DNA from: Salvelinus alpinus
Taxonomy: Eukaryota; Chordata; Actinopteri; Salmoniformes; Salmonidae
Direction: 5' to 3'
Assembly (NCBI RefSeq): GCF_045679555.1
Contig: NC_092093.1
Coordinates: 65,977,714 to 66,041,713, forward strand
DNA: 64,000 nucleotides
Below, one piece after another: positions 17,201 to 25,275 of the stretch (its first letter is position 1; every line of letters begins with the position of its first letter). Below the pieces are notes generated by a model. The model was given only the letters and a program-made list of their open reading frames with translations, ran no database searches and was not told where the DNA came from. Position numbers and translations under genes: made by a program.

Positions 17201-20200
17201 ATGAATACTAGTCGTCTCTCGTTGAAGGACAACAAATACTTAATTGAAGAATCCTGTCCATAGTTCCAACTCCTACTAGGAGTACTACCAATCACTGGCG
17301 AAGGGTGTAGACTTCGACTTGTGTGTGTTTTTTTTGTTTAACTATCCTTGGGTACCAGAAGTCCTCACAAGGATAGTAAAACAAGGATAATTCGTGCAAG
17401 GCGGGACATTTTGCCGGTCCTCATGAAAAAAATATGCTATTTTAGGCTTAGGGGTTAGGTTTAGGGTTAGGGTTACATATAGGGTTTGGGGTTAAGTTTT
17501 GGCCCAAGGTTAGGGTTAGGGGTTAGAAAAAATAGGATTTTGGATGGGAATCAATTCTTTGGTTCCCACAAGGATAGCAACACAAAACTGTGTGTGTGTG
17601 TGTGTGTTCTCTACCTCTCTTGGCCAGGTCCCTGGCTGTCTCTTTGCCGATTCCAGTGTTAGCTCCTGTGATGATGACAGTCTGACCGTCCAGACGCACG
17701 TCACATGACCAGCGGCCACAGAAGAAGTTCCTGACAGAGTCGGATACACACAGCAAGAGAGAGTCAAATACACAATCAACACAGTCAATCAACATAGTCA
17801 ATCAACACAGTTGAACACAGTTGAACAAACACAGTTGAAATCGTTTGGAGGATGTGGTAAGACAGCTTATTACAGAGACAGGAAATGTGGTAATATTACA
17901 ACATAACACAACAACATACAATACACATATTACACACACACCAGTGGAGGCTGCTAAGGGGAGGGCGGCTCATAATAATGGCGGGAACGGCGCAAATGGA
18001 ACGGCATCAAACACCTGGAAACCATGTGTTTGATGTATTTGATACCATTCCACAGATTACGCTCCAGTCCTTATCACGAGCCCGTCCTCCCCAATTAAGG
18101 TGCCACCAACCTCCTGTGACACACAAACACACACACACAACATCACTGACACACAGAGCAGATAATCAGAATGTCAACTTAACTTAGATGTCAGCAAGAC
18201 AGTTAATTATTAGCTACTAGTCAGAATACTAGCTTAAAACCTTTCTGGACTACCCATCCCGGATCCGGGATCATTCTCATCAGAAACGCTGACTAGCATA
18301 GACTAGCCTAGCGCCACAGGGATATCATATAATATCATTTCATGAAATCACAAGTCCAATACAGCAAATGAAAGATAAACATCTTGTGAATCCAGCCAAC
18401 ATGTCCGATTTTTAAAATGTTTTACAGCGAAAACACAATATATATTTATGTTAGCTCACCACAATAGCCAAACACACAACGCCATTTTTTCACCGCAAAC
18501 ATAGCTTTCACTAAACCCACAAATTGAGATAAAATTAATCACTAACCTTTGAACAACTTCATCAGACGACAGTCTTATAACATCATGTTATACAATACAT
18601 TTATGTTTTGTTCGAAAATGTGCATATTTAGAGCTACAAATCCTGGTTTTACATTGGTGCCATGATCATAAATGGCACTAAAACAGCCAGAATAATTACA
18701 GAGAGCAACGTGAAATACAGAAATACTCATCATAAAACATTTATGAAAAATACATGTTGTACAGCAAATGAAAGATAAACATCTTGTGAATCCAGCCAAT
18801 ATTTCCGATTTTTTAAGTGTTTTACAGCGAAAACACAACATATATTTATGTTAGCTCACCACAATAGCGCAACACACAACGCCATTTCGTCACCGCAAAG
18901 ATAGCTTTCACAAAACCCACAAATAGAGATAGAATTAATCACTAACCTTTGAACAACTTCATCAGATGACAGTCTTATGACATCATGTTGTACAATACAT
19001 TTATGTTTTGTTCGAAAATGTTTTAGAAACTTCAGAGTGTTTTCTATCCAATAGTAATAATAATATGCATATCGTATGATCTAGAACAGAGTACGAGGCC
19101 GTTTAATTTGGGCACGATTTTTTCCCAAAGTGAAAACAGCGCCCCCTATTAAGAAGAAGTTTTAAGCGCTGAACCAAATTATGAAATGTAAATCATTCGT
19201 CTTATGATTAACTGTAAATAAGTGAAAAAGGTTATGATCTTCTATGGAGCATACGACTAGATGAAATATTAATTCAGTAAATCGGCTACCAAACCTGGAT
19301 AAATAATAGATTGTTTTAGTAAAAACCAATAATAAAATGTGTTATGAAGTAGAAATATGTTTTTGTTTTAATTTACTTTACAGTTTTTCTCAATCGCTTT
19401 GGCTCAATTCTCAAATTAGATATTTTTTTCTTCCAAACAATATGTTCAAATCTCTGAACAATTAGTTTCTTGTTCACACCAGATTTGACTCTCTTATTAA
19501 TTTAAGCAAATTGCACGTGTTTTGGCACTTGTGCAAAAGAGTAAACACAATTGTCTACAATTTGCACAATAACTACATGCACATGGCTGATCAAAACCGA
19601 TGAGCTGATTCTCAGTGAAATTATCATACTCTTCACAACTTCACAACATTCTTTCATTATGTGAGCCATCACATGCAAAATGATCCATTCGAAGATCAAA
19701 ATCTGTCAGACATACATGTATATTCCATAAATATCTATGACATGGAATGTTTGTAATGTCTGCTAAATTGGCAAATTACCTGCCAGGTGGCATAGTAATG
19801 AAATAGGAATCACAATCTTACCAATCAACCAATCAAGTTTGGAAGCATATATATGGAGCTTGCCCACAGCACAATCACTACCATTTATGAACATGGAGGA
19901 ACATCACAACCCTGAACAGCAGCTACATGCTCGTGGAAGAGAAATAAGAAGATGTGTAAGAATGCATGGTGGTAGTGGTGGTGGTGGTGGTGATGGTGGT
20001 GGTAGTGGTGGTGGTGTTGGTGTTGGTGGTGGTGATGGTGGTGGTGGTGGTGATGGTGGTGGTGGTGTTAGGGGAAGACATAATAGAGGAAGAAGTAGAA
20101 GGCAAAGAATAAGAGTCCCTGATGAAATCAGAGCCACATTTGTGGACCATGTCATAAACCATGGTCTGACAATGGAAGAGGCTGGTCAGAGAGTACAGCC

Positions 20201-25275: not shown

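Follow-up and report, generated by a model that had tools for sequence, protein, structure and literature searches.

Tandem arrays of transposase-gene segments inside dispersed copies of a Tc1-like transposon in Salvelinus alpinus

Background

The change from DNA transposon to satellite is often argued from single snapshots, and the locus described here raises the question of whether its successive steps can be told apart within one genome. The window analysed is a 64,000-nucleotide stretch of Salvelinus alpinus DNA (contig NC_092093.1, positions 65,977,714 to 66,041,713), and it contains a transposon copy in which 44 tandem units of 71 bp lie within the transposase gene. An earlier note on this stretch, made from the sequence alone, had proposed that the array was amplified within an inserted element and that such an element offers a direct route from DNA transposon to satellite. 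Arrays carried by transposons are already known from Xenopus miDNA4 and Drosophila Tetris. Among the cases covered in the accessible part of a review of satellite sources in transposons, terminal and other non-coding parts prevail, and ORF-related satellite DNA is described in chicken (PMC9659126).

All sequence was taken from one assembly (2.37 Gb, 928 contigs), and the searches were run within that same assembly. Twenty unit-bearing regions outside the window were fetched: six hold further arrays, and the other 14 have the unit singly, whole or in part.

Structure of the window element

The window copy is an element of 5.1 kb at 19381-24511 with 26-bp terminal inverted repeats (TIRs) and a TA dinucleotide bordering each end. 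The claim that the TIRs and the TA are kept on both sides was confirmed, with 24 of 26 bp identical between the two TIRs in a local alignment and the TA at 19379-19380 and 24512-24513. The 17-bp TIR core has two inverted occurrences in the window with zero mismatches, where 0.11 matches are expected by chance at up to three mismatches and 2 of 100 shuffles gave two or more. The same TIR is present in relatives of the window copy. The features of the element and its borders are as follows, with the evidence in brackets.

19379..19380, no strand: TA target-site duplication, 5' side (sequence; empty-site proof is for the relative L042 only)
19381..19411, + strand: 5' terminal inverted repeat (core matches, alignment; same TIR in relatives)
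19887..20149, + strand: 5' part of transposase exon 1, from putative start codon to helix-turn-helix (HTH) (ORF reading, TRF, alignment to relatives)
19967-20067: imperfect TGG run inside the 5' part of exon 1 (TRF)
20150..23276, + strand: 44 tandem 71-bp units from the HTH-coding part of exon 1 (TRF, unit spacing)
23277..23310, + strand: rest of exon 1 on its 3' side, with a donor-like GTAAAT directly after it at 23311 (sequence; relatives)
23522..23735, + strand: what is left of the third coding block, a frameshifted stretch from the first part of the DDE domain, with putative boundaries (translations; DDE_3 in the same region of relatives)
24483..24511, - strand: 3' terminal inverted repeat (core matches, alignment)
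24512..24513, no strand: TA target-site duplication, 3' side (sequence)
24537..24893, no strand: minisatellite of 43-bp units, 8.3 copies, close beyond the 3' end of the element and not part of it (TRF)

TRF reported the array with period 71, 44.0 copies, 95% matches, 0% indels, and a score of 5526, and all 43 unit-to-unit spacings are exactly 71 bp. Its length is known from one assembly. Because the array is 3.1 kb long and dispersed, the term 'minisatellite' fits better than 'satellite'. A search for higher-order repeats was negative, with no dominant lag and a longest series of identical units in the window of three; identical series of three or more were absent from the four other 71-bp arrays tested.

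That the repeated sequence is transposase coding sequence was borne out: the upstream ORF runs in frame into the first unit, and the last unit continues into the rest of the exon and a putative splice donor (the GTAAAT, located by eye). In single-copy relatives such as L037 and L038, exon 1 reads straight across the unit into the 3' remainder. While the origin of the unit in exon 1 stands, its assignment to an HTH is weakly backed by Pfam. The family HTH_23 matched a typed reading of the window that skips the array (E 0.001, 19.2 bits; cut-off 24.6), and both matches obtained, with E values of 0.001 and 0.0024, fell below the Pfam cut-off. The window ORF with the array left in matched no Pfam family, and a PDB search with the HTH returned no hits.

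Since the unit has a length of 3n+2 and stop codons interrupt every frame of the consensus array, the window copy is unable to encode a whole transposase. Relative to L042, the window copy lacks two further segments on the 3' side, and only one frameshifted piece of its DDE region is kept.

Other minisatellites lie elsewhere in the window at 848-1516, 29156-29884, 33991-34776, and 48404-48612, with units of 27, 36, 30, and 24 bp, respectively; together with the 43-bp repeat beside the element, these have 8 to 26 copies each.

The transposon family

A genome search with the 590-bp left part of the element gave 42 matches at about 30 places (37 of 37 candidates scored). The family is Tc1-like and belongs to IS630/Tc1/mariner, as is seen from DDE_3, the TA duplication, and the TIRs. 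The DDE_3 cut-off of 28.6 was passed by a fragment from L037 (34.4 bits) and another from L046 (38.5 bits), and a second L037 fragment fell short of it at 25.3 bits. The spacing from the second D to E is 35 residues in one fragment. The transposase lies in three coding blocks, the element at L042 is about 3.2 kb long, and the element end reads CAGTT.

Both TIR cores bound five of the 14 single-unit loci (L037, L040, L042, L045, and L048), which contradicts the possibility that the TIR pair fails to delimit other copies. One of them, the copy at L042, has an empty site: its flanks read CATATTA and TAATGCCC, compared by eye with CATATTAATGCCC in the uninterrupted copy in L049, which shows that this insertion made a TA duplication in a TTAA context. 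The repeat hosting the insertion is presumably Tc1-like itself. On C34, the 5' end of the array copy coincides with the corresponding point in a further copy of this host repeat; two different element copies (L042 near 4384, and L034, which is C34, at its 5' flank) were inserted at the same TTAA site. At L047 (C5:88815000-88824900), three partial single-unit copies lie about 2.9 kb apart, apparently as a larger tandem duplication.

Divergence among 19 copies averages 8.2% (range 5.4 to 10.2%, 171 pairs), and the copies differ from their own majority sequence by 3.3 to 5.8%. Together with a star-like tree of low support, this divergence pattern suggests that the family spread in one old burst. 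The backbone analyses were done without L043 and L047, which are too short, and the permutations also without L048, a near twin of L046.

Distribution of the 71-bp arrays

Seven arrays of the 71-bp unit were found, each on a different contig; they have 44, 42, 20, 19, 11, 6, and 2 units, and the unit spacing is exactly 71 bp in every one. All seven lie at the same position inside the same element, adjoined by its left part and by the stretch that follows the array in the window copy. The array lies inside the element and varies in copy number by insertion, from 2 to 44 units at the seven loci, beside the 14 single-unit loci. Both TIRs are kept at four of the seven (C8, C17, C10, and C4); the 3' TIR was not found at C14, C34, and C24, two of which (C14 and C24) also have an altered 5' end. 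A second genome search, with the C24 array as query, returned the same seven arrays and no other among the best 40 of 50 candidates, and no free 71-bp array outside the element was found among the candidates scored (the best 40 of 41 and 40 of 50). The earlier note had named arrays at several loci, inside the same element and with differing copy numbers, as the support to look for, and this was obtained at seven loci; a 71-bp unit occurring mainly as free satellite, named there as a refuting case, was not seen among the candidates scored (40/41 and 40/50).

Given that one assembly is the sole source, misjoined or inflated repeats could in principle mimic such arrays. We consider this highly improbable in view of the locus-specific unit patterns and the exact spacing in seven arrays, although the copy numbers could still be wrong. 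Segmental duplication was rejected as the reason for the multiple arrays, as the 1.5-kb flanks of the array loci do not match each other (both sides compared for C8, C14, C17, C10, and C4, and the 5' side for C34 and C24). The long flank matches of the array loci correspond to a Tc1-like repeat (C34, L042, and L049) and a weak repeat (C17 and L040).

A 6-bp direct repeat, TGTCAT, brackets the unit in the single-copy elements; some of these copies show point changes in it. In the 71-bp arrays, the unit-unit junction falls within TGTCAT. Strong folding of the unit was rejected as a driver of amplification (z 0.55 to 0.93 against shuffles for the three single units, no better than chance, and -1.18, a slight excess, for a two-unit stretch). 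The array on C4 consists of two identical units with variants 41T and 44T, which occur in no other array unit, and probably arose later, by an independent duplication at the TGTCAT repeat.

Arrays of 54-bp and 28-bp units

TRF analysis of 21 loci revealed a 54-bp array at five fetched loci and a 28-bp array at two (the loci with further arrays are labelled L033, L032/L052, L034, L035/L053, and L041). The 54-bp arrays have 75 units on C17, 50 (motif) or 51 (TRF) on C24, 20 on C10, 9 on C34, and 5 at L041; the 28-bp arrays have 46 units on C10 and at least 119 at L043, where the array reaches the fetched end. The 54-bp unit, an open frame of 18 codons, covers the beginning of exon 2 together with the putative intron-1 acceptor, and the 28-bp unit covers the putative exon-2 donor. 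The 54-bp segment was not found in the window copy or in C14. The copy on C10 carries all three array types, which make up about 5.4 kb of its 8.2 kb, including the following two.

L033 6900-7979 (C10:57457399-57458478): 54-bp array (TRF)
L033 8201-9489 (C10:57458700-57459988): 28-bp array (TRF)

The 28-bp array of L043 (C24:40713500-40721500) occupies 4664-8001, and both the 71-bp and the 54-bp unit are unrepeated in this copy. The same locus has a 24-bp array (4007-4338) and several minisatellites in its flanks. A genome search with the 54-bp array (23 of 23 candidates) returned the five known loci, one divergent array, and 17 single-copy places. The divergent 54-bp-derived array, at C8:8531935-8533159, is longer in period. 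The matches listed near it include no left part of the element, and it is a candidate free or truncated satellite.

The 71- and 54-bp arrays tend to co-occur: among 14 loci keeping the 54-bp segment (L043 dropped, L046 and L048 counted separately), four of the five with a 54-bp array have a 71-bp array, versus one of nine others (P 0.023). The array types are not nested without extra events, since L041 has the 54-bp but not the 71-bp array, C4 the reverse, and L043 the 28-bp array only.

Common or separate origin of the arrays

Each array may have grown in place and independently from the unit of its own copy, at unstable spots favoured by minisatellite-prone surroundings. The TGTCAT repeat at the 71-bp junction and the C4 pair with its private variants fit such growth, as does the finding that the backbones of the array copies make no clade. 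Minisatellites also lay no more than 2 kb from the element at 6 of 7 array loci versus 3 of 14 single-unit loci at 70% match (P 0.016), and at 4 of 7 versus 3 of 14 at 85% match (P 0.16), several single-unit locus flanks being shortened by the fetched ends. This 2-kb count replaced an earlier one (6/7 versus 2/14, P 0.003) in which flank lengths were unequal. Array length may be set by local context. As an account of how the arrays were founded, however, independent growth appears unlikely in the light of the unit variants and the 54-bp junction.

Six 71-bp variants occur in at least four arrays each, whereas a mutation-weighted null gave no more than three in 5000 trials; this test includes variants also seen in single copies, and the array-only test is its stricter version. 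Three array-only variants of non-CpG type were seen in at least three arrays, against a null mean of 0.17-0.33 (P 0.001-0.002). Array-only variants were defined as those absent from 13 single-copy units, a set without L050 (unit partly deleted), L049 (partial), and the second L047 unit (1-bp deletion), and the extra base of the L041 unit was removed for alignment. Variants also found in single copies are 14C, 20G, 40A, 55T, and 65A for the 71-bp unit and 24T, 29T, and 45A for the 54-bp unit. Identical multi-variant units are present on different contigs, namely 18G+59T+65A on C17 and C34, 18G+64T on C14 and C10, and 59T+65A on C8 and C17. Array-only variants and haplotypes common to several arrays both speak against independent growth. 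So does the 54-bp junction, GAGCAGC followed by TCTACATG, which is the same at all five fetched 54-bp array loci with zero base overlap (microhomology) at the break that could steer recurrent events. The variant G42A of the 54-bp unit is common to three of the five arrays and absent from nine single copies, L043 again being left out of the single set.

The timing of the arrays points the same way. The 13 single units carry 3.2 variants each, and five of the seven arrays have no variant in 90% or more of their units. Because locus-wide private variants are absent from these five, compared with 3.2 per single unit, their founding is placed no later than roughly the first 19% of the period since the burst, a bound that is approximate because part of the 3.2 is older family variation. 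The proposal that amplification took place within an inserted element is accordingly a partial account: the shared variants and the lack of locus-wide private variants indicate that most arrays were present, at least as short ones, at or soon after insertion and then grew locally.

The backbones gave a different picture from the units. Allele sharing among array copies did not differ from random in permutations (P 0.76 without and 0.22 with CpG-type sites), and none of 15 segment tests was under 0.05 (lowest P 0.07). Four subsets were compared, and the pair C8 and C14 was the sole one to deviate (P 0.02; 0.067 when all sites were used). No allele marking all array copies was found among 258 informative alleles, and no internal deletion common to them was seen. 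A founder lineage is possible only with a split very shortly before dispersal.

Unit variants common to the arrays, in backbones that are not, would also be expected if arrays had spread by homology among inserted copies, through interlocus conversion or reinsertion of circles, with the backbone staying behind. The uneven distribution of the three array types is in keeping with this, but the stretches beside the arrays have no excess sharing (a comparison of low power), the early founding of five arrays leaves little time for such exchange, and the circles are hypothetical. Spread by homology is judged improbable, marginally more so than independent growth.

Proposed history

We favour, at a probability of roughly one half, the reading that array-bearing non-autonomous copies transposed in trans and that each array then grew and was shuffled locally. 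A Tc1-like transposon would have spawned non-autonomous copies carrying tandem duplications of short transposase-gene stretches. The first step was probably a 54-bp duplication over the intron-1 acceptor in an otherwise full-length copy, followed by the 71-bp duplication of the HTH stretch with its junction in TGTCAT. This order is suggested by one locus, L041, where five 54-bp units accompany a single 71-bp unit that lacks the array-only variants. During the burst, the array-bearing lineage would have moved in trans to several sites on different contigs, movement that we infer from the intact TIRs. After insertion, unequal exchange within and between units may have caused growth, contraction, and shuffling, leading to 6-44 units of 71 bp and 5-75 units of 54 bp. 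The observations suggest a transposon able to carry a satellite-like array to new sites. With respect to the direct route from DNA transposon to satellite, transposon-borne arrays were found, and a free-standing 71-bp satellite was not among the candidates scored.

Relation to known systems

A literature search, chiefly of papers outside subscription, found no published account of this transposon family or array case. The comparisons below refer to the accessible parts of the sources cited. The Xenopus element miDNA4 is a Tc1/mariner MITE with one to many monomers and microhomology-driven change (Scalvenzi and Pollet 2014, as described in the review PMC12628747). It resembles the present family in being of Tc1/mariner type, in having an internal monomer that is single or arrayed, and in the short direct repeats proposed as driver; it differs in being a MITE that is said to have captured a pre-existing repeat, whereas the units here are three pieces of the element's own transposase gene. 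Xstir of Xenopus (Hikosaka and Kawahara 2004, as described in the review PMC12628747) likewise occurs as MITE, array, and composite forms of one sequence, but from a MITE interior and by another proposed mechanism, in contrast to the transposase gene here. Tetris / TIR-220 of Drosophila virilis shares internal tandem repeats of variable copy number, for which unequal crossing-over was proposed (PMC4079207). Tetris is a foldback element that has these repeats in its TIRs, and they also build longer arrays of kb size, whereas the 71-bp unit here is coding and a free array was not found among the candidates scored.

Traveler, a Tc1/mariner group also present in salmonids, is of DD35E type with a TA duplication, and is described as about 1.5 kb long with a single ORF and ends CAGTC or CAGCC (PMC7093834). 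The present family likewise makes a TA duplication, and one of its fragments has 35 residues between the second D and the E. Going by that description, the present family differs in its length of about 3.2 kb (L042), three coding blocks, and end CAGTT; the same source gives the CAGTT end for SB (PMC7093834).

Significance

One genome here holds graded states of 1, 2, 6, 11, 19, 20, 42, and 44 units of the same element, and these, together with the element ends, the single-unit relatives, and the shared variants, allow founding, transport, and local growth to be separated. Unlike the cases in the accessible part of the review literature, the sources are coding and putative splice-site stretches, used three times in one family. 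We tentatively raise the further possibility, which we regard as doubtful but worth stating, that the arrays are in effect second-order mobile elements. In this view, three segments of the transposase gene (two of which cover putative splice sites) would have become minisatellites that pass between copies by transposition in trans or homology exchange, their length then being set by the locus. If this were true, any transposon family that has internal units of this kind would come equipped to disperse the seeds of satellites.
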